From NCBI GenBank assembly GCA_017417465.1, contig JAFPZD010000263.1, positions 1-64,000 of the forward strand: a DNA stretch of 64,000 bases. The letters run 5' to 3'. Of the stretch, positions 20,754 to 61,528 are shown piece by piece; position 1 is the first letter of the stretch, and each line of letters starts with the position of its first letter. The notes beneath the pieces are model-generated. The model was not told where the DNA came from, made no database searches, and saw nothing but the letters and a program-made list of their open reading frames with translations. Source of the stretch: Prevotella sp. (GTDB taxonomy: Bacteria > Bacteroidota > Bacteroidia > Bacteroidales > Bacteroidaceae). A program made the position numbers and the translations under genes.

Positions 20754-22487
20754 TCATTTGCCAGCCATAATGTTGGTGATGGAAACGATGTCGCCGATTC
20801 CTACCTCGTTGTCACCATTCACATCACCACGGCTGACGATGTCTGTGTCAGTCTCCAAGCCAGCCATAATGTTGGTGATAGCCACAATGTCGCCGATGCC
20901 AATCTCACCATCGCCGTTCACGTCACCAGCCTTGTAGCTGATCACGATTGTGTAAGAGACAGCGGCAGGCGCCAAGCGGTAGTCGGTGGCAGCACCAGTG
21001 ACGGTAATCATTGCCGAGCCTACGCCAACGACTGTCAGCTCGCCAGTCTCAGCATTCACCTTTACGACGTCCTCGTTGCTCGATGTCCATGTCAGCTTGC
21101 CGTCATAGTCCTGCGAACGGGTCACGGTGGGAGTCGCAGGGGCTGGCTCGCCGTACTTTCCCTCTACGCGACTATCAGAAAGGCGGATGAAGGCCTGATG
21201 CTTGGTCCATGATGTGACGTTCAGCGTCACAGGCAAGTTGTTGTCCTTCGAATTATCCTCCATCCAGGGATAAGGCCACTTTGTATCGTACTCGTAGCCG
21301 CAGTCACTGCCCACAAGGTTGGGCGCATCGAGGCCGTTGTCGTAGAACACGAAGTAGCGAATGCCATCGACAAACACTTCCTTCGGCGTCTGAGCGATGC
21401 CCTTGGCACGCAGGTTCAGCACGCGACTAACATCCAGACGCTCATGCACCCGCAGACCAACCTCCGTAGGCGAGAGCTTCACGGCCTGTACCGTGGGCTG
21501 CTGGTTGTCGAGCCTTAGCATGTTATCGTCAGAATTGCCTTTCACCACGTCTTTCAGGTCGAGCCACATCAGGCGGTTGTTAAATGCCTGCACCTGACCG
21601 AGTACCGGACAGTTGTCGGCGATGAGCATCTGCAGCTTGTTGTTCTCGCAGTTAATGGCTCTGAGCTCAGGATTGTTCGTCAGATAAAGCGTGCCCAGCA
21701 CATTCTGGTCGCAAGTGATGTCGTTAAACTCTGTGCAGTCGTCGATGGTAATCGTCGTGATGTCGTTGTTCAGCATCATCAGTGTGCGGACGATGGGCAG
21801 ATGCTTTATCGTGAGCGTGCGGATGGTGGTATAGCGGATGTCGATGTTCTCCAAGGCATCACAGTTCTGCAGGTTCAGTGAGTTCAACTGGTCCAACACG
21901 TCCTCTCCGCCCATAATGCCGATGGCCTGAATGGCGGGATGGTTGCTGAAGTCGAGGTCGGTGATGCCCGTATGCTGCAACCATAATCCTATCAGGTTAG
22001 GCAACCGGCTGACGTCAAGCGATGTCAGTTTCGGGGTACTGTTCAGACTGATTTGTTTGACGCTGGCAGGCAGCGACAGTGACTGGACATTGGGGCAGAG
22101 CGTTAGTTCTAAGTCCGTAAACATCGTGTTCTTGCTAAAATCCAGAGCCGTGACGCCGTTGCAATCCATTAACGAAAATCGATAGAGCTTGGGGAACACG
22201 CTGGGGTCAATCTCCTGGATGCTTTCCTCCTCGGAATAGCCCCACAGGTGGAGTTCCTCCAGGTTCGTGAAATGCTCGGCACCCTTCAGGTTCAGTATGC
22301 CACCAGCATTGATGCTCCAAATAGTGGCCAGTTCCGCGTCGCTCAGCGTGCCGTTGCCGTCCTCATCGTACTGTGATGCATAGTTGCGCAGGTTCTCGTC
22401 GGGGAAGTTCGCCTCGTTGATCACCACGCTGGCCTGCGTTGTCATCATGGCGAAGGCTAACGCTGCTAAAATCGTTAATCTTTTCAT
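20754..22487 (-). CDS. Secreted leucine-rich-repeat protein with Big-2-like and dockerin-like domains
   Basis: A 577-residue exported protein, signal peptide about 1-19. It begins with an EF-hand-like segment YDEDGNGTLSDAEL (about 40-53), continues with irregular leucine-rich repeats (about 65-340), a bacterial Ig-like Big-2 region around WTSSNEDVVKVNAETG (about 460-475), and ends with two dockerin/F-hand calcium repeats DVNGDGEIGIGDI and DVNGDNEVGIGDI. In Bacteroidales such C-terminal paired repeats are common on cell-surface or secreted proteins and need not mean a cellulosome. The shorter of two nearby starts was chosen (MKRLTILAAL). It is monocistronic with its own promoter and terminator. 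Confidence 0.8.
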   Translation of the reverse strand: MKRLTILAALAFAMMTTQASVVINEANFPDENLRNYASQYDEDGNGTLSDAELATIWSINAGGILNLKGAEHFTNLEELHLWGYSEEESIQEIDPSVFPKLYRFSLMDCNGVTALDFSKNTMFTDLELTLCPNVQSLSLPASVKQISLNSTPKLTSLDVSRLPNLIGLWLQHTGITDLDFSNHPAIQAIGIMGGEDVLDQLNSLNLQNCDALENIDIRYTTIRTLTIKHLPIVRTLMMLNNDITTITIDDCTEFNDITCDQNVLGTLYLTNNPELRAINCENNKLQMLIADNCPVLGQVQAFNNRLMWLDLKDVVKGNSDDNMLRLDNQQPTVQAVKLSPTEVGLRVHERLDVSRVLNLRAKGIAQTPKEVFVDGIRYFVFYDNGLDAPNLVGSDCGYEYDTKWPYPWMEDNSKDNNLPVTLNVTSWTKHQAFIRLSDSRVEGKYGEPAPATPTVTRSQDYDGKLTWTSSNEDVVKVNAETGELTVVGVGSAMITVTGAATDYRLAPAAVSYTIVISYKAGDVNGDGEIGIGDIVAITNIMAGLETDTDIVSRGDVNGDNEVGIGDIVSITNIMAGK

Positions 22488-22518
22488 ACCATTCATGCAT
22501 TTTAATGTTTAGATGGTG

Positions 22519-22526: not shown

Positions 22527-22627
22527 CGAAAAAAATTCTTATTATCCTTCACAATGCGTGTCTTTTTGCTGTTTCATGACTAAAATTGCTCAATTTATGC
22601 TTTGGGTGCAAAAAAACTTCCGAATTG

Positions 22628-22659
22628 TTTGCGTGGTTCGCAAAAAAGTTGTACTTTTG
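22628..22659 (+). promoter_or_regulatory. Promoter of the aromatic amino acid operon
   Basis: TTTG (22628-22631), 20-nt spacer, TACTTTTG (22652-22659). Transcription should start near 22665, giving a leader of about 200 nt before the first enzyme gene and only about 20 nt before the leader-peptide ATG. Confidence 0.8.
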
Positions 22660-22684
22660 CAGGCGAAAATAGATTCCAGAGGAT

Positions 22685-22732
22685 ATGAAACAGTACGCTT
22701 CTTACTACTACTTCTATTTTTACTTCGCATAA
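22685..22732 (+). CDS. Tyr/Phe-rich leader peptide
   Basis: A 15-codon ORF encoding MKQYASYYYFYFYFA. Nine of 15 residues are aromatic (six Tyr, three Phe), with eight consecutive aromatic codons (22703-22726). It sits right after the promoter, 138 nt upstream of prephenate dehydratase, and is followed immediately by mutually exclusive hairpins and an intrinsic terminator. The arrangement is that of PheL/PheM-type leader peptides: scarcity of charged tRNA-Tyr or tRNA-Phe would stall the ribosome on the aromatic run and relieve termination. The peptide itself probably has no function. GAGG at 22679-22682, three bases before the ATG, may serve as a weak ribosome site. Confidence 0.85.
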   Translation: MKQYASYYYFYFYFA

Positions 22733-22792
22733 AAATGTGAAGCGGTAGGTAGCGTATATATAGTAAACGATAAGCATAAGCCCCGCTTCACA
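22723..22792 (+). promoter_or_regulatory. Attenuator: alternative hairpins 1:2 and 2:3
   Basis: Segment 1 (CTTCGCAT, 22723-22730, last leader codons) can pair with segment 2 (ATGTGAAG, 22735-22742) with one G-U pair. Segment 2 extended (TGTGAAGCGG, 22736-22745) is a perfect 10-bp complement of segment 3 (CCGCTTCACA, 22783-22792), which is also the left arm of the terminator. A ribosome stalled on the Tyr/Phe codons would cover segment 1 and free segment 2 for the antiterminator 2:3. A ribosome reaching the stop codon would cover segment 2 and let the terminator form. Pairing is read from the sequence; the mechanism is inferred from proteobacterial attenuators. Confidence 0.8.
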
Positions 22793-22814
22793 GAGTGTGA
22801 AGGCGGGGCTTTTT
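22778..22814 (+). terminator. Attenuator terminator upstream of pheA
   Basis: G/C-rich stem AAGCCCCGCTTCAC (22778-22791) with GTGAAGGCGGGGCTT (22797-22811), one bulged G, five-nt loop, followed directly by a T-run. It lies before the operon, so it must be conditional for the genes to be expressed. Confidence 0.9.
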
Positions 22815-22870
22815 AAGTGAAGAGTGAAGAGTGAAAAAGTGAAGACTGACAAAAGTATAATCGCAATAAT

Positions 22871-23713
22871 ATGAAACGAATAGCGATACAAGGCATTACG
22901 GGCTCGTTCCACGACATTGCCGCCCATCAGTTCTATGAGGGTGAACAGCTGCAGCTCATCTGCTGCAGCACCTTCGAGCAGGTGTTCGTCGAGATGAAGG
23001 CCGACCCCACGGTTATCGGCATGACGGCTATTGAGAACACCATCGCCGGCTCGCTGCTCCACAACTACGACCTGTTGCGCGAGAGCGGGGCAACGGTGGT
23101 GGGTGAGCACAAGCTACACATCACGCACTGCATCTGCTGTCTGCCCGACGACTCGTGGGAGACGGTCACTGAGGTGCACTCGCATCCCGTAGCCCTGATG
23201 CAGACGCGCCACTACTTAGAGGCTCATCCGAAGCTGCGCATCATTGAAACCGACGACACGGCGGGAGCTGCCAAGATGATTGCCGAGGGTGGTCACCGCG
23301 GATGGGCTGCCATCTGCCATGCGGAGGCTGCCCGCCTCTATGGCCTCAAGGTGCTGGAAGATGGCATCGAGGACAACAAGCACAACTTCACCCGTTTCCT
23401 CATTTGCAGTTCTCCTCAGAAAGCCGACATGCTGCGTCCGCTGACAGAGACCAACAAGTCGAGCATCGTCTTTTCACTGCCTCATGAGGAGGGCTCGCTC
23501 TCGCAGGTGCTCAGCATCCTGTCGTTCTACAAGATGAACCTCACCAAGATTCAGTCGTTGCCTATCATCGGTCACGAGTGGGAATATCTGTTCTACATCG
23601 ATGTGACCTACGACAACCTGACGCGCTACCGCCAGTCGATAGATGCCATCATTCCCTTAACACGCGAATTGCGCATCCTTGGAGAATATAAAAGCCACAC
23701 ACCCCAACATTAA
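22871..23713 (+). CDS. pheA: Prephenate dehydratase
   Basis: Converts prephenate to phenylpyruvate on the phenylalanine branch. A 280-residue monofunctional enzyme: the prephenate dehydratase domain (about 3-182) has VIGMTAIENTIAGSL and the catalytic-site motif NFTRF (Thr174-Arg175-Phe176). The C-terminal ACT regulatory domain (about 197-275) carries LTKIQSLP in the place where many homologues have a Phe-binding ESRP motif. Chorismate mutase activity is supplied by the DAHP synthase fusion two genes downstream. It is the first enzyme gene after the attenuator. A short-repeat array GTGAAGAGTGAAGAGTG (22817-22833) separates the terminator from the start codon. Confidence 0.95.
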   Translation: MKRIAIQGITGSFHDIAAHQFYEGEQLQLICCSTFEQVFVEMKADPTVIGMTAIENTIAGSLLHNYDLLRESGATVVGEHKLHITHCICCLPDDSWETVTEVHSHPVALMQTRHYLEAHPKLRIIETDDTAGAAKMIAEGGHRGWAAICHAEAARLYGLKVLEDGIEDNKHNFTRFLICSSPQKADMLRPLTETNKSSIVFSLPHEEGSLSQVLSILSFYKMNLTKIQSLPIIGHEWEYLFYIDVTYDNLTRYRQSIDAIIPLTRELRILGEYKSHTPQH

Positions 23714-23725
23714 TAACACGAAACT

Positions 23726-24895
23726 ATGATTCAACCAGCAGACAGGCTCAGCTTAGTGAGCGAATACTACTTCAGCCGCAAACTCAAGGAAGTGGCACAA
23801 ATGAATGCCGAGGGCAAGGACATCATTAGCCTGGCTATCGGAAGCCCCGACATGCCTCCTTCGCCGCAGACCATTGAAAAACTCTGCGAAGTGGCCCGCC
23901 GCCCTGACGCTCACGGCTATCAGCCCACCATGGGAACGCCGGAGCTGCGCCAGGCCATGGCCCGATTCTACAAGCGTTGGTACGATGTTGAGCTTGACCC
24001 TGCCCGTGAGGTGCTGCCGCTCATTGGTTCGAAGGAGGGCATCCTCCATGTCACGCTGGCTTTCGTCAATCCCGGCGACGCGGTGCTAGTGCCTAATCCG
24101 GGCTATCCCACCTACACATCGCTGAGCAAGCTGCTGGGTGCGAAGATTGTGAACTACAACCTACGCGAAGATAACGGCTGGCAGCCCGACTTCGATGCAC
24201 TTGAACAGATGGACTTGACGGGAGTCAAACTGATGTGGACGAACTATCCCAACATGCCCACGGGCGCTCCTGCCTCCATAGACACTTACCGGCAGTTGGT
24301 GGACTTCGCCCGCCGTCACGACATTGTTGTGGTGAACGACAATCCCTACAGCTTTATCCTTAACGAGCATCCCATTTCGTTGCTTCAAGTGCCCGGTGCC
24401 AAAGCGTGCTGCATAGAGTTCAACTCCATGTCGAAGTCGCACAACATGCCTGGCTGGCGTGTGGGACTTTGTGCCACGAATGCTGAGTTTATCTCCTGGA
24501 TTCTCAAGGTGAAGAGTAACATCGACTCTGGCACGTTCCGCGGCATTCAGTTGGCCGCTGCTCTAGCCTACGACAACAGAGAGGAGTGGCATCGTGAGGC
24601 CAACATCGCCACCTACCGTCGTCGCCGCCAGTATGCCGAGCAAATCATGCAGGCTTTAGGGTGTTCGTTCGATCCCGCTCAGGTGGGCATGTTCCTTTGG
24701 GGACGCATTCCCGACAACTATACCGATGCCGAGGAGCTTACCGAGCGTGTGCTCCATGAGGCCCGTGTCTTCATCACACCAGGCTTCATCTTCGGTTCGC
24801 GTGGTGAGCGTTACATCCGCATCTCACTTTGTGCAAAAGAAGAAAAAATCAGCGAGGCGCTGAAACGAATAAATAGCTCAACTTTCACAAGTTGA
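23726..24895 (+). CDS. Class I pyridoxal-phosphate aminotransferase, probably aromatic
   Basis: A 389-residue fold-type I aminotransferase with Lys237 in NSMSKSHNMPGWRVG as the Schiff-base lysine, the TNYPNMPTG loop (about 172-180) and NDNPYSF. Placed 12 bp after prephenate dehydratase and before DAHP synthase and prephenate dehydrogenase, it most likely transaminates phenylpyruvate and 4-hydroxyphenylpyruvate (or prephenate). The sequence alone resembles generic aspartate/LL-diaminopimelate-type aminotransferases, so the substrate rests on context. Confidence 0.85.
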   Translation: MIQPADRLSLVSEYYFSRKLKEVAQMNAEGKDIISLAIGSPDMPPSPQTIEKLCEVARRPDAHGYQPTMGTPELRQAMARFYKRWYDVELDPAREVLPLIGSKEGILHVTLAFVNPGDAVLVPNPGYPTYTSLSKLLGAKIVNYNLREDNGWQPDFDALEQMDLTGVKLMWTNYPNMPTGAPASIDTYRQLVDFARRHDIVVVNDNPYSFILNEHPISLLQVPGAKACCIEFNSMSKSHNMPGWRVGLCATNAEFISWILKVKSNIDSGTFRGIQLAAALAYDNREEWHREANIATYRRRRQYAEQIMQALGCSFDPAQVGMFLWGRIPDNYTDAEELTERVLHEARVFITPGFIFGSRGERYIRISLCAKEEKISEALKRINSSTFTS

Positions 24896-25000: not shown

Positions 25001-26065
25001 ATGGAATTAGACTTACAACCCCTGAAACTGCCCAGCGACCAGGAACGGCCGTTTGTGATTGCAGGCCCCTGCTCAGCCGAGACCGAGGAGCAGGTGATGA
25101 CTACTGCCCGTGAACTTGCCATGAAAGGCTGTCATAACTTCCGGGCAGGCGTATGGAAACCACGCACGAAGCCCGGTGGCTTCGAAGGACACGGTGAGAA
25201 GGCGCTGCCGTGGCTACAGCAAGTTAAGAAAGAGACGAAGATGCTTGTCGCCACCGAGGTGGCCACGCCTGAACATGTGGAACTCGCCCTGAAGTACGAC
25301 ATCGACATCCTTTGGATTGGTGCCCGTACCAGTGCCAACCCCTTTGCTATGCAGGCCCTTGCCGATGCCCTGGCAGGTGTCGATGTGCCCGTCTTTGTGA
25401 AGAACCCCGTCAATCCCGACATCGAGCTGTGGATAGGTGCCATGGAGCGCCTGAACCAAGCTGGCGTCCGTCGGCTTGGCGCTATCCACCGCGGCTTCTC
25501 CAGCTACGACAAGAAGATTTACCGTAACCTGCCCATGTGGCAGATTCCCATAGAGTTGCACCGCCGCATCCCTGAGCTGCCCATCATCTGCGACCCGTCG
25601 CACATCGGTGGACGCCGTGAACTCATTGCTCCGCTGTGCCAGCAGGCCATGGACCTGGGCTTCGGTGGACTCATCGTCGAGAGCCACTGTGACCCCGACA
25701 ATGCCTGGAGCGACGCTAAGCAGCAGGTCACCCCAGACGTGCTCGACTACATTCTCTCGCTGCTCGTCATCCGTGACGAGCACACCACCACCGAGGGCAT
25801 CCAGCAGCTGCGTAAGCAGATTGACGAGCTCGACAACCAGATGATGGACGTGCTCACCAAGCGCATGGGGGTCTGTCGTGAGATTGGAACATACAAGAAG
25901 GAGCACAACATGACCGTGCTACAGACCTCACGCTACAACGAAATCCTCTCGAAGCGTGGTGCACAGGGCGCCCTCTGCAACATGTCGCCCGAGTTCGTTG
26001 CGAAGGTCTTCGAGCTGATTCACGAAGAGAGTGTGCGCCAGCAAATCGAGATAATCAATAAGTAA
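25001..26065 (+). CDS. Bifunctional DAHP synthase / chorismate mutase
   Basis: A 354-residue fusion. Residues about 5-255 form a type I-beta DAHP synthase (FVIAGPCSAETEEQ, GVWKPRTKPGGFEG, WIGARTSANPF, PIICDPSHIGGRRE, GLIVESHCDPD), the first step of the shikimate pathway. Residues about 263-350 form an AroQ-type chorismate mutase (IQQLRKQIDELDNQMMDVL, with CREIGTYKK). In related enzymes the mutase part mediates feedback by aromatic end products. The fusion fits the operon, where prephenate is made next to the enzymes that consume it. Start is after an array-type 5' region. Confidence 0.95.
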   Translation: MELDLQPLKLPSDQERPFVIAGPCSAETEEQVMTTARELAMKGCHNFRAGVWKPRTKPGGFEGHGEKALPWLQQVKKETKMLVATEVATPEHVELALKYDIDILWIGARTSANPFAMQALADALAGVDVPVFVKNPVNPDIELWIGAMERLNQAGVRRLGAIHRGFSSYDKKIYRNLPMWQIPIELHRRIPELPIICDPSHIGGRRELIAPLCQQAMDLGFGGLIVESHCDPDNAWSDAKQQVTPDVLDYILSLLVIRDEHTTTEGIQQLRKQIDELDNQMMDVLTKRMGVCREIGTYKKEHNMTVLQTSRYNEILSKRGAQGALCNMSPEFVAKVFELIHEESVRQQIEIINK

Positions 26066-26435
26066 AGGCCCAAACAAACCCAACAACCCACCCCCAAGAA
26101 CCCCAAGAACCCATCCCCAAGAACCCACCCCCAGCCCCTCCCCCAGGGAGGGGAGTCTGAATAGATTTGGAGGTGGCATAGGGGGGCTGAATGATTGGAG
26201 GTGGCATAGGGGGGGGCTGAATAGATTTGAAGGGTATAGGGGGGCTGAATAGATTTGGAGGTGGTATAGGGAGTCTGAATAGATTTGGAGGTTGCATTAA
26301 AATGAAACATATACATTAATTATATAAGAACAATTAACCCGCATAACTAACCAAACTCCCCTCCCTTGGGGAGGGGTAGGGGGTGGGTTTTGGGGGAATG
26401 GGTTCTTGGGTTATTGGTTATTGGCTTAGTCTATT
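26066..26435. repeat. Class B/C intercistronic repeat element between DAHP synthase and tyrA
   Basis: 370 bp without a gene. C-rich CCCAAGAACCCAC units and CCCCTCCCCCAGGGAGGGG open it; tandem units of about 30 bp (GGGGGCTGAATAGATTTGG, about 26150-26296) fill the middle; and CTCCCCTCCCTTGGGGAGGG plus GGGTTCTTGGGTTATTGG close it. The left and right margins are inverted relative to one another and abut the flanking stop and start codons. Confidence 0.75.
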
Positions 26436-27227
26436 ATGAAAATACTAGTATTAGGTGCAGGCAAGATGGGAAGCTTCTTCATCGACCTGCTTAGTTTCGA
26501 GCATGAAGTAGCCGTCTACGAGCGTGATCCACGCCGCATGCGGTTTACTTACAATTGTCAGCGGTTCACAACCATGGATGAGATTGAGGCTTTCAAGCCC
26601 GAATTGCTCATCAATGCTGTCACGCTGAAGTACACCATTCCTGTGTTCAAGGAGGTCATTCCGCATCTGCCCAAGGAGTGCATCATCAGCGACATCGCTT
26701 CAGTGAAGACCGACCTGAAGGAGTTCTACGAGTCGGCAGGTATGCGTTATGCCAGTAGTCACCCCATGTTCGGTCCCACGTTTGCCAACCTGAACCAGCT
26801 GCACGAGGAGAACGCCATCATCATCACCGAGGGCGACTTCATCGGACGCCTGTTCTTTAAGGATATCTACCAGAAGCTGGGGCTCAACATCTACGAATAC
26901 TCGTTCGAGGAGCACGACAAGACGGTGGCTTATTCGCTCAGCATCCCCTTCGTCTCGACCTTCGTCTTCGCTGCCGTCATGAAGCACCAGGACGCCCCGG
27001 GCACCACCTTCAAGCGTCATCTGCGCATCGCCAAGGGTGTTCTCAGTGAGGACGACTACCTGCTGCAGGAGATTCTCTTCAACCCTTATACTCATGACCA
27101 GGTGTCACAGATTCGCACCGAGCTGAAAGAACTTCTCGAGATCATCGACCGTCGCGACAACGATGGCATGAAGGCCTACCTTACAAAGATTCGTAATAAC
27201 GTCCGGCAGGACGTCGAGCGGCTCTAA
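26436..27227 (+). CDS. tyrA: Prephenate dehydrogenase
   Basis: NAD(P)-dependent conversion of prephenate to 4-hydroxyphenylpyruvate for tyrosine. A 263-residue protein with an N-terminal Rossmann fold (ILVLGAGKMGSFF, residues 3-15), the DIASVKTDLKEFY segment and SSHPMFGPTFANL (about 109-121), where the His is the expected catalytic residue. There is no ACT domain. It is the last enzyme of the attenuator-controlled operon and completes both aromatic branches. The ATG follows a TTATTGGTTATTGG short array. Confidence 0.9.
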   Translation: MKILVLGAGKMGSFFIDLLSFEHEVAVYERDPRRMRFTYNCQRFTTMDEIEAFKPELLINAVTLKYTIPVFKEVIPHLPKECIISDIASVKTDLKEFYESAGMRYASSHPMFGPTFANLNQLHEENAIIITEGDFIGRLFFKDIYQKLGLNIYEYSFEEHDKTVAYSLSIPFVSTFVFAAVMKHQDAPGTTFKRHLRIAKGVLSEDDYLLQEILFNPYTHDQVSQIRTELKELLEIIDRRDNDGMKAYLTKIRNNVRQDVERL

Positions 27228-27249: not shown

Positions 27250-28365
27250 ATGACTCTCCACGTCTTCAACCCCGAACACGACATAGCGCTGGCATCAGGC
27301 CTTTCCAACTTTACGGCGCCGCATGCTGCGCGGCAGCTGCGCTACGACCTTGGTTTCCTGCCTGCACTCTGGGCTGCCGAGGACGACCTCGTGCTGGTCG
27401 ACGACGTCGAGCATGCCCTCAAGTGCTATCAGCGGTTAGCCCGCGCCGTGAGGCGTCATCACATTCCCCCACTGCCAGTGACGACCCCTCGTTTTGTGTC
27501 AGCTGGCAAACGCGATGGTCTGTCAGGCGAGACGTCGCTCACTGCCGTCGACCCTTGGGGGTGGGACACAGCACTCAGCGCGAAGCTGCGCAGGGGTGGG
27601 GTAGGCGCTTGCCTGTTACCAACATCTGAACAGCTGGCAGCCGTCCGCGAGCTGTCCCACCGCCACACTGCCGCCCGCCTGCTGCCACTGCTGCGCCTGC
27701 CCGGCACTGTTGGCGAGGCTTTCGAGTGTCACGACATCAGTGCAGTCGAGCACCTGCTGACCCTTTACCCGCGACTGGTGCTGAAAGCCCCATGGAGCAG
27801 CAGTGGCCGTGGCCTCCGTTTTGTCGACGCATCCACCATGCAGTCGTCCCACGCCGTCCAGCTCCGTGGCTGGCTCACTAACATTTTGTCAACGCAGGGC
27901 AGCGTTATGGCCGAGCCTTACTACCCCAAGGTGTGCGACTTTGGCATGGAGTTCTACAGCAATGCCGATGACACCGTCAGCTACTGCGGTCTCTCGCTCT
28001 TCCACACCGCCAATGGCGCTTACACGGGTAATCTCCTTGCTACTGAGCAAGCCAAGCGCCAATCGCTAAGTCGCTATGTGTCAACCGATCTGCTCGATGC
28101 TGTTCAAGCAGAGATTTGCCGCTATCTACCTGGCATTCTCGCCGGCTCTTACTGTGGTCCCCTCGGCATTGACATGATGATTGTCTCTCCTTTACCTCCT
28201 TCATCTCCTTACTCCTTTCTTCTCCATCCCTGTGTAGAAATCAATCTTCGGCGCACCATGGGGCATGTCGCTTTGGCCTTAGTTCCCACTGACGACGACA
28301 TACGCCGTGTCATGCGCATCCATTTTATTCAGAACAACTATTACCTCAAAATCGAACAGTTATGA
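27250..28365 (+). CDS. ATP-grasp-like conserved protein
   Basis: A 371-residue protein of a Bacteroidales-conserved type starting LHVFNPEHDIALASG. The second half has ATP-grasp-like features: VLKAPWSSSGRGLRFV (about 177-192), a glycine-rich nucleotide loop, GSVMAEPYY, and VEINLRRTMGHVAL (metal-binding E-x-N and Arg) near the C-terminus. This suggests a carboxylate-amine ligase type reaction with unknown substrates. Residues about 314-328 (PLPPSSPYSFLL) look foreign: they are encoded by a pyrimidine-rich array identical in type to intergenic class C repeats, inserted in frame between DMMIV and HPCVEIN. It is separated from tyrA by a TTCACTATTCACTTTC array and overlaps the GH43 gene by four bases. 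Confidence 0.6.
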   Translation: MTLHVFNPEHDIALASGLSNFTAPHAARQLRYDLGFLPALWAAEDDLVLVDDVEHALKCYQRLARAVRRHHIPPLPVTTPRFVSAGKRDGLSGETSLTAVDPWGWDTALSAKLRRGGVGACLLPTSEQLAAVRELSHRHTAARLLPLLRLPGTVGEAFECHDISAVEHLLTLYPRLVLKAPWSSSGRGLRFVDASTMQSSHAVQLRGWLTNILSTQGSVMAEPYYPKVCDFGMEFYSNADDTVSYCGLSLFHTANGAYTGNLLATEQAKRQSLSRYVSTDLLDAVQAEICRYLPGILAGSYCGPLGIDMMIVSPLPPSSPYSFLLHPCVEINLRRTMGHVALALVPTDDDIRRVMRIHFIQNNYYLKIEQL

Positions 28366-30239: not shown

Positions 30240-30305
30240 CAGTTTGTGGCATCGGTTCTACACGGTTTTTGTGGCATCGGTTCTACACGGTTTAACACGG
30301 TTTTT
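30240..30305. repeat. Extra outer-arm units of the class A element
   Basis: Two further copies of GTGGCATCGGTTCTACACGG lie directly upstream of the class A element, in the orientation of its left arm. They parallel the amplification of the same outer arm at 2928-3358. Confidence 0.75.
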
Positions 30306-30736
30306 TGTGGCATCGGTTCTACACGGTTTTACACGGGCAAGTGTCAGGTGTCAGGCGATGCCGCCAATGTTGGCCGCCGATGTAGGGGCAGGCCCATTCC
30401 CGAGCTACGCTCGCCTACCCGTAGCCTTTGTGCCAGCCCGTTGGCCCGTAAGGGCCAGTGTGCCTTTCATTTTTAAGACAACCCACACAACCTGAACAAC
30501 TTATCCAACCACCGAATGAACAAAGACAACATCCTGGGCGCAAGCGCCCATCCACAACAACGCGGCGGAGGGGGAAGACGATGCCTGGCACCTGACACTG
30601 GCCCTTCGGGCCAACGGGCTGGCACAAAGGCTACGGGTAGGCGACGGAACGTCGGGAATGGGCCTGCCCCTACACTGGCGGCATCGCCTGGCACCTGACA
30701 TTGGACCGTGTAAAACCGTGTAGAACCGATGCCACA
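30306..30736. mobile_element. Hairpin element, class A copy 2 (long arms)
   Basis: The left arm (30306-30461) and right arm (30595-30736) are inverted repeats of about 140-155 bp with limited mismatches. They start from TGTGGCATCGG/CCGATGCCACA at the outer ends and reach GGGCCAGTGT/ACACTGGCCC at the inner ends. The core 30462-30594 is 133 bp, the same length as in copy 1 and about 95 percent identical, with the palindrome GGGCGCAAGCGCCC. No ORF of plausible composition is present. As RNA it would fold into a very long hairpin. Confidence 0.7.
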
Positions 30737-30786
30737 ACAACCGTGCAAAACCGTTACTATTGATCATGAGTTCACACGATAGAATA

Positions 30787-31796: not shown

Positions 31797-31916
31797 ATTA
31801 TTCTGTATTTCAGACAATTAGAAATGGGTGTTTTTGGAGTGTTAATAAGGGGCATTTCTTATTTGTATCTCGATATCATGAGTGCTGACAGTTACTCATC
31901 CAAAAGTTGCCAGTCG

Positions 31917-32220
31917 GCCAATATAGGGGCACAAGGTCAGTCTTGGCGAGAAAAATTATGGTTACACTGGCCCTGCCGGGCCATCGGGCTGGCACAAAGG
32001 CTACGGGTAGGCGAGCGTAGCTCGGGAATAGGCCTGCCCCTACACTGGCGGAATTGCCCGTACACTGGTGGAATTGCCCGTACATAGTGGCATCACACTC
32101 GGCGGAATCGCCCCTACTGGCGGAATTGCCCCTACATAGTGACATTGTTAATTGGTGGTACAAGATCAGTGTTCGCGAGATGGTTATGGTCACGCTGGCC
32201 TGATGGGCCAACGAATCATT
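31917..32220. repeat. Solo class A arms and short derived repeats
   Basis: A right arm without its partner (31963-32045: CACTGGCCCTGCCGGGCC ... CCTGCCCCTAC), then several GGCGGAATTGCCC(C/G)TAC units. Two related stretches beginning ACAAGRTCAGT (about 31931 and 32160) suggest a duplication. No gene. Confidence 0.65.
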
Positions 32221-32348
32221 CACCGGAACTGGCTTTTAATGAGATGTTTACGTAAGAAGTGAATGGTTTTTGGAATACTGATTGCCTTTTGTATTCGCTG
32301 TTCATTATTAGCGTTTATGCTGTTCACTTAGGTATTTGCTGCTTATTA

Positions 32349-61455: not shown

Positions 61456-61528
61456 GCACCCTTAGCTCAGTTGGTAGAGCACCTGACTCTTAATCAGGGT
61501 GTCCAGGGTTCGAGCCCCTGAGGGTGTA
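61456..61528 (+). tRNA. tRNA-Lys (anticodon CTT)
   Basis: 73 nt forming a full cloverleaf: acceptor GCACCCT / AGGGTGT, D-arm GCTC ... GAGC with AGTTGGTA loop, anticodon stem CCTGA / TCAGG with loop CTCTTAA (anticodon CTT), and T-arm CAGGG / CCCTG with TTCGAGC. Discriminator A; CCA is not encoded. It has its own promoter and terminator. Confidence 0.97.

Follow-up and report, generated by a model that had tools for sequence, protein, structure and literature searches.

The phenylalanine leader pheL combines a leader peptide rich in codons for the product amino acid with a 1:2:3:4 layout of pairing segments, with pheA downstream. One leader can also sense several amino acids, as in the enteric thrL (Thr and Ile) and ilvL (Ile, Leu, and Val). 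According to excerpts of the papers cited in this paragraph, leader-peptide systems had been recorded by 2010 from Proteobacteria and Actinobacteria only, with Firmicutes then added (PMC2965389), and no leader-peptide element was found at Phe or Tyr operons of Actinobacteria (PMC1262725). Short open reading frames (ORFs) "reminiscent of leader peptides" occur in Bacteroides thetaiotaomicron (PMC7366714), and Bacteroid-trp (RF01692) is a listed cis-regulatory motif in Bacteroidetes (PMC2864571). In Flavobacterium psychrophilum, a conserved structured 5' element, present also in other Flavobacteriaceae, lies upstream of pheA; it has no Rfam hit and comes from a 2021 transcriptome study that also gives "strong clues" that amino-acid operons are preceded by leader-peptide attenuators (PMC9723704). 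Upstream ORF (uORF) motifs with Phe and Tyr codons are described at shikimate genes (PMC6429828), as is uORFC-13-1 at aroF (PMC8632094). Here, we report an element upstream of pheA in a 64,000-nucleotide stretch of Prevotella sp. DNA (the window) which, judged from its parts, their conservation, and their alternative pairings, we hold with high confidence to be a ribosome-mediated transcription attenuator of a Phe/Tyr operon.

A sequence-only reading of the window had claimed a consensus promoter, a 15-residue leader peptide with eight successive aromatic codons (six Tyr and three Phe in all), alternative helices ending in a strong terminator upstream of prephenate dehydratase, and downstream genes for both Phe and Tyr (Table 1). 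The leader proved exact on reading and translation, with 6 Tyr and 3 Phe among its 15 residues, and a promoter of the Bacteroidota type (TTTG plus TAnnTTTG) was found before it. The segment 1:2 helix (22723-22730 with 22735-22742) was correctly placed and has 8 bp with one G-U pair, the 2:3 helix (22736-22745 with 22783-22792) is indeed a perfect 10-bp complement, and sequence and folding both bear out the 3:4 terminator at 22778-22814 (15 pairs within 22778-22811; U-run, 22810-22814), ~60 nt upstream of pheA. Pfam identifies the downstream genes as pheA, an aminotransferase, DAHP synthase/chorismate mutase, and tyrA. A codon pattern, TWY repeated seven times, was used to search the whole 4.42-Mb genome for Phe/Tyr runs; runs of at least seven codons were found in the leader only (two overlapping matches). 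An alternative scan pattern, CAYCAYCAYCAY, was dropped as too frequent to be useful.

Table 1. Coordinates (window numbering) of the leader element and the operon that follows it
Feature	Position	Strand	Basis or comment
-33-like promoter element TTTG	22628..22631	+	sequence
-7-like promoter element TAnnTTTG (TACTTTTG)	22652..22659	+	sequence, TAnnTTTG search
Leader peptide ORF MKQYASYYYFYFYFA	22685..22732	+	15 residues, TAA stop at 22730-22732; sequence read and translation
Control codons YYYFYFYF, eight Tyr/Phe in series	22703..22726	+	lone (TWY)7 site of genome
Segment 1	22723..22730	+	pairs with 22735-22742
Segment 2, partner of 1 or of 3	22735..22745	+	22736-22745 complements 22783-22792
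Segment 3 plus loop, terminator 5' arm, includes antiterminator 3' arm	22778..22795	+	folding
Segment 4 plus U-run, intrinsic terminator	22796..22814	+	sequence, folding, 3:4 covariation
pheA, prephenate dehydratase	22871..23713	+	PF00800, E 1.2e-53
Class I/II aminotransferase	23726..24895	+	PF00155
DAHP synthase fused to chorismate mutase	25001..26065	+	PF00793 and PF01817
tyrA, prephenate dehydrogenase	26436..27227	+	PF02153, 42.2 bits (cut-off, 26.5)

The two promoter elements (22628-22631 and 22652-22659) have 20 nt between them, and we take the TTTG to be the -33 part of the Bacteroidota promoter consensus. TAnnTTTG is given as the sigma-A consensus in the part of PMC9723704 cited here. 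Within the 80 nt that precede the leader start, it occurred in 75/75 Prevotella-group, 44/55 order, 18/33 class, and 0/4 other-class leaders, against a background of 4 to 6% in shuffles. A simple pattern scan of the plus strand listed no promoter here, the scanned promoter being of the sigma-70 type, and did not list the leader terminator, which is evident by folding.

Upstream regions of 200 pheA genes were compared, comprising 81 from the Prevotella group (the window plus 80 loci, the latter drawn from 553 relatives), 59 from the order, 40 from other orders of the class, and 20 from other classes of the phylum. All counts are restricted to genomes with a PheA match (order search, 81/197; class/phylum search, 214/247). 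For the order set, 60 of 80 nonwindow matches were taken, omitting the 17 weakest and G132, G194, and G012; one locus with only 15 nt upstream (L106) was then removed, leaving 59. The class set took 40 of 54 matches; 10 of the 14 omitted members came from genera already sampled, and the other four from genera g178 (three genomes, in which PheA is weak) and g207 (a single genome). The other-class set took 20 of 157 matches from the upper ranking, not strictly the best 20. Class and other-class loci were picked before the upstream sequence was inspected. Family and genus searches found PheA in 219/251 and 78/100 genomes, respectively, and the 200 regions include upstream regions from neither. 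To count as a leader, an ORF could have no more than 60 codons and needed at least six aromatic residues in eight.

Conservation upstream of pheA, which had been proposed as the check on the element, was found: an aromatic leader ORF is present in 167/200 regions (window included), 164 of the leaders having both Phe and Tyr codons, and both the 3:4 and 1:2 hairpins covary. By group, the leader occurs in 75/81 Prevotella-group, 55/59 order, 33/40 class, and 4/20 other-class regions, the remaining 16 of the last group showing none. The same rule found leaders in 3/682 regions upstream of other ORFs at the same loci (mechanical ORFs of at least 150 codons) and in 20/2,000 dinucleotide shuffles; the stricter requirement of at least seven aromatic residues in eight gave 155/200 pheA regions versus 1/682 controls and 0/2,000 shuffles. 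On these rates and the genome-wide uniqueness of the (TWY)7 site, a chance origin of the leader ORF was rejected. Leader plus terminator, by the rule of the analysis, was found in 161/200 regions; the six leaders without a terminator by that rule are all from the Prevotella group, and in most of them a hairpin is visible by eye. The 167 leaders include 151 distinct peptides and 156 distinct core sequences.

The six Prevotella-group misses comprise three loci where pheA stands without the other three genes downstream (L022, L041, and L049), one with only 117 nt upstream (L055), and two where the operon is kept and the leader is absent (L035 and L075). The order-set misses are L092, L097, L103, and L129, the last of which reaches five in eight, as do four of the seven class misses (L156, L165, L166, and L168). 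In the other three class misses (L167, L170, and L183), the best short ORF resembles the 3' end of the preceding gene, which by eye looks like an EPSP synthase gene. The four other-class loci with a leader (L185 to L188) are the four best other-class PheA matches in the class/phylum search, so the leader may move along with a particular PheA lineage.

In the window, all four operon proteins have Pfam matches above the cut-offs; their NCBIfam matches agree in kind (including those to prephenate dehydrogenase models), all falling below their cut-offs. The gene order pheA-aminotransferase-DAHP synthase/chorismate mutase-tyrA was found at 64/80 close-relative loci, with only the first two or three genes in order at 13 more within the DNA examined. 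The leader is present at 74/77 close-relative loci with an aminotransferase gene after pheA (exceptions, L035, L055, and L075) and at 0/3 where pheA lacks that gene downstream.

Several other features were seen around the operon. Between tyrA and the DAHP synthase/chorismate mutase gene lies a gap of 370 nt in which a 30-bp unit is repeated five times in tandem (26149-26297), with four TAGATTTG (TAnnTTTG-like) boxes; this array may hold extra promoter-like sites for tyrA or be a mobile repeat. Immediately 3' of tyrA, a 371-residue protein is encoded at 27250-28365 (plus strand), with no Pfam or NCBIfam match at an E value of 0.001. Further along, three mechanical ORFs (30244-30495, plus; 30473-30748, minus; 31876-32223, minus) share LPVAFVPARWP by eye, which suggests dispersed repeats.

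Across all 167 leaders there are 748 Phe, 683 Tyr, and 34 Trp codons. Three leaders are Phe only (L090, L108, and L134), and none is Tyr only. Among the 75 Prevotella-group leaders, 2 of the 375 codons in the last five positions are nonaromatic; four of these positions show synonymous change or Phe/Tyr exchange, and the penultimate codon is TAC in 75/75. In the 92 leaders from outside the Prevotella group, all of the last six positions mix Phe and Tyr, with 82 to 92 of the 92 codons per position encoding Phe, Tyr, or Trp. Since leaders were selected for aromatic content, the Phe/Tyr and synonymous exchanges are the informative part, and judging from them, the coding of the run is conserved beyond mere sequence. 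Trp codons were seen in some leaders (L117, L125, L131, and L148), through which the shared DAHP synthase step might respond to Trp shortage as well.

The leader might instead sense one amino acid only, for instance Phe, the other being tolerated as slowly decoded or chemically similar. The Phe-only leaders, the Trp codons in some others, and shifts of the Phe:Tyr ratio between groups (262:355, 312:191, and 153:119) fit such a sensor, which we nevertheless regard as unlikely, given that nearly all leaders keep both amino acids, that Tyr-only leaders are lacking, and that the operon has both Phe and Tyr branches. Sensing of the peptide itself, in the manner of TnaC, an arrest peptide sensed by its amino-acid sequence and not by codon starvation, would account for a strongly conserved aromatic core, an invariant penultimate TAC in the Prevotella group, and a CEA tail conserved in most close relatives. 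Phe and Tyr are freely exchanged, however, the peptides differ widely from locus to locus (151 distinct among 167), and the conserved tail follows from its encoding segment 2; we consider an arrest peptide very improbable. The favored reading is codon-based sensing of both amino acids.

Covariation was assessed in an alignment of 66 rows (the window plus 65 close relatives, after removal of duplicates and of loci that lacked a leader or a terminator), counting cells, which are counts of sequences, not events. The 3:4 terminator had 50 cells changed on both sides versus 15.9 in shuffles (0/500 reaching this); these changes fall in 5 pairs, a number that is not unusual (144/500 shuffles). The 1:2 hairpin was paired in 98.5% of cells, with 15 both-side-changed cells versus 2.5 in shuffles (0/500), of which 14 fall in the loop-closing pair. 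Nine pairs of the 2:3 helix were intact in 99.0% of cells, and three sequences had a replacement at one pair; being almost invariant, the helix shows nearly no covariation in close relatives. In the 92 distant relatives, mean 2:3 pairing energies were -13.5 kcal/mol for a leader's own partner, -8.9 for swapped partners, and -5.7 for shuffled ones. The own pairing was better than the average over foreign partners in 90 of the 92, ranked in the top tenth in 59 and best in 11, and was equalled by at most 5/100 shuffles in 84. Triple counts from self-predicted pairs lean towards pairing and were excluded as evidence.

Outside the Prevotella group, a duplex test of 1:2 with the whole ORF gave no excess over shuffles, and a second test was weakly above them (mean z, about -1.4). 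The longer 1:2 hairpin of the window MFE structure was not conserved above shuffles. Segment 2 keeps a tight spacing from the last aromatic codon, with a median of 9 nt (10 to 90% range, 8 to 13; n = 161). In the window, the stop codon lies upstream of segment 2, and among the 161 leaders, it lies after segment 2 in 115, inside it in 21, and before it in 25; in most leaders, the peptide tail is therefore segment 2 read as codons, as with the Prevotella-group tail ..CEAGSRM and similar tails, in which CEA is encoded in most close relatives.

The RNA from 22664 to 22824 folds at -46.4 kcal/mol (z, -3.5; 0/200 shuffles equal or better). Without segment 4 (22664-22795), the MFE structure contains the 2:3 pairing, at ordinary stability (z, -1.06; 28/200 shuffles as good). 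At gathering score, the families of Rfam 15 matched the 64-kb window only at a tRNA (61456-61528), and a T-box or riboswitch of those families was rejected there.

In the mechanism we propose, RNA polymerase would start ~20 nt before the 15-codon leader, as judged from the promoter. With charged tRNA-Phe or tRNA-Tyr scarce, the leading ribosome would stall in the Tyr/Phe run, leaving segment 2 free to pair with 3, so that no terminator would form and the operon from pheA to tyrA would be transcribed. With both plentiful, a ribosome at the stop codon would cover segment 2, 3:4 would form, and transcription would end near 22814. The interleaving of Phe and Tyr codons makes a response to shortage of either amino acid the likeliest outcome. 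Conservation and pairing support the attenuator reading; transcription start, leader translation, stalling, termination, and the starvation response are what we infer from it.

Ribosome states were modeled by masking a footprint that reaches from ~16 nt before the A site to ~13 nt past it. Across 161 leaders, a stall at the last aromatic codon left a mean of 92% of segment 2 free, and stalls at earlier codons left 99 to 100%. For the window RNA ending at 22795, stalls at three positions in the run gave an antiterminator probability of 1.00 and a stall at the last Phe codon one of 0.80, compared with 0.00 for a ribosome at the stop codon. In the RNA to 22818, the terminator was favored in every ribosome state tested, so in this model the decision would have to be kinetic, made before segment 4 is present; such a decision during transcription is usual for attenuators. 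For RNA to 22795 with no ribosome, 2:3 had a mean probability of 0.74, although the MFE structure was without these pairs. Leader translation would accordingly matter for termination, with 1:2 as a partial guard only. At the stop codon, a ribosome would cover 50% or more of segment 2 in 134/161 leaders and 90% or more in only 52/161.

Several features of an attenuator are found together. A short ORF has a run of codons for the product amino acids of the operon, and an intrinsic terminator stands between this ORF and the first gene. In the window, 2:3 and the terminator are mutually exclusive, with segment 2 free under a modeled stall and covered by a ribosome at the stop codon (masking at the stop is partial in many relatives). 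The Prevotella group also has the protector hairpin 1:2, which is not essential to the class of attenuators.

Two further explanations concern the region between the leader and its neighbors. The leader could act on pheA by translational coupling or reinitiation, not termination, as leader genes in Bacteroidetes peak 11 to 14 bp before the next gene (in the portion of PMC4833913 cited here). We give this hardly any credence, since the leader stop codon and pheA are 138 nt apart with the terminator between them, and an intervening terminator accompanies 161/167 leaders. It is similarly hard to believe that the hairpin merely ends the upstream gene, or that the ORF encodes a small membrane protein with no regulatory role. 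In favor of these are the intergenic position and a short, hydrophobic peptide. Against them, hairpin, ORF, and spacing are conserved jointly before pheA, and the upstream gene (20754-22496), encoded on the opposite strand, points away, for which reason the hairpin was rejected as its terminator. The protein encoded by this divergent gene ends in two dockerin-like repeats (DVNGDGEIGIGDIVAITNIMAG), seen by eye.

Attenuation by the mixed leader remains our interpretation, and the element is very probably, on comparative grounds, a genuine sensor switch of the classic type with mixed Phe/Tyr input, placed before pheA in most relatives examined. With somewhat less assurance, we think it probable that the single mixed leader was the ancestral either-or sensor of the class, that every aromatic codon is a usable stall point leaving segment 2 free, that the leader sets the joint output of the Phe and Tyr operon, and that the hairpins have repeatedly undergone coordinated changes of their nucleotide sequences.

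Comparable leaders were sought elsewhere in the same genome. No convincing His-rich leader was found within ~1.5 kb at its two hisG genes, and no convincing Trp-rich one within ~1.5 kb near trpE, the latter being a weak test because trpE is not necessarily the first trp gene. The two hisG copies lie on separate contigs, C233 (L227) and C217 (L228); with an estimated contamination of 5.5%, part of the assembly may be foreign.

The class is prominent in guts and elsewhere, and in most of its examined pheA-bearing members, aromatic amino-acid synthesis would be under a conserved regulator that precedes pheA and can be read from its codons. The phylum is thought to use Shine-Dalgarno pairing little. 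The 156 distinct cores, with their altered control codons and pairing segments, offer material for testing rules of attenuation, namely, codon choice, spacing, stop position, dual sensing, and translation starts.

In comparison with known systems, the element shares with pheL (RF01859) a leader peptide rich in product codons, the 1:2:3:4 layout, and pheA downstream, and differs from it in its mixed Phe/Tyr codons and four-gene Phe and Tyr operon. The Phe_leader model (RF01859) scored 18 bits in the window against a cut-off of 55, and other leader families were comparably weak there (Leu, 19 of 50 bits; Thr, 16.3 of 55). Sensing of several amino acids is held in common with thrL and ilvL; pathway and lineage differ. 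Bacteroid-trp (RF01692; cut-off, 49 bits), a separate family located by name at trp genes, had no match in the window (gathering score) or in the genome, while the control search of a Bacteroides ihuae genome gave one. The uORFs of PMC6429828 and PMC8632094 resemble the leader here in being short, in containing aromatic codons, and in preceding genes of the aromatic pathway, as far as the cited parts of both papers go. The genomes named in the former (HIMB5, B. cicadellinicola, Arcobacter sp. L, and T. lienii) are not Bacteroidota, and in the main texts, pheA is absent from PMC6429828 and "Bacteroid-" from PMC8632094. In the open-licence literature searched, looking for tyrosine codons together with a leader peptide gave no paper, and no mixed Phe/Tyr leader was found described for Bacteroidota; older subscription papers could contain such a description.

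The nearest described relative is the F. psychrophilum pheA element, which has phylum and gene in common with the element here and is possibly the same one; its main-text description names no peptide, codons, or Tyr (PMC9723704). The sequence-only reading had suggested that a Tyr/Phe attenuator might be new to the phylum. That novelty is smaller than first thought, because a conserved Flavobacterium pheA 5' element and clues for attenuation were already published, in the part of PMC9723704 cited here; what stands of the claim is the mixed Phe/Tyr leader, for which the open-licence papers searched gave no earlier description in Bacteroidota. The distinctive feature, set against these systems, is a mixed Phe/Tyr input maintained across the sampled class.
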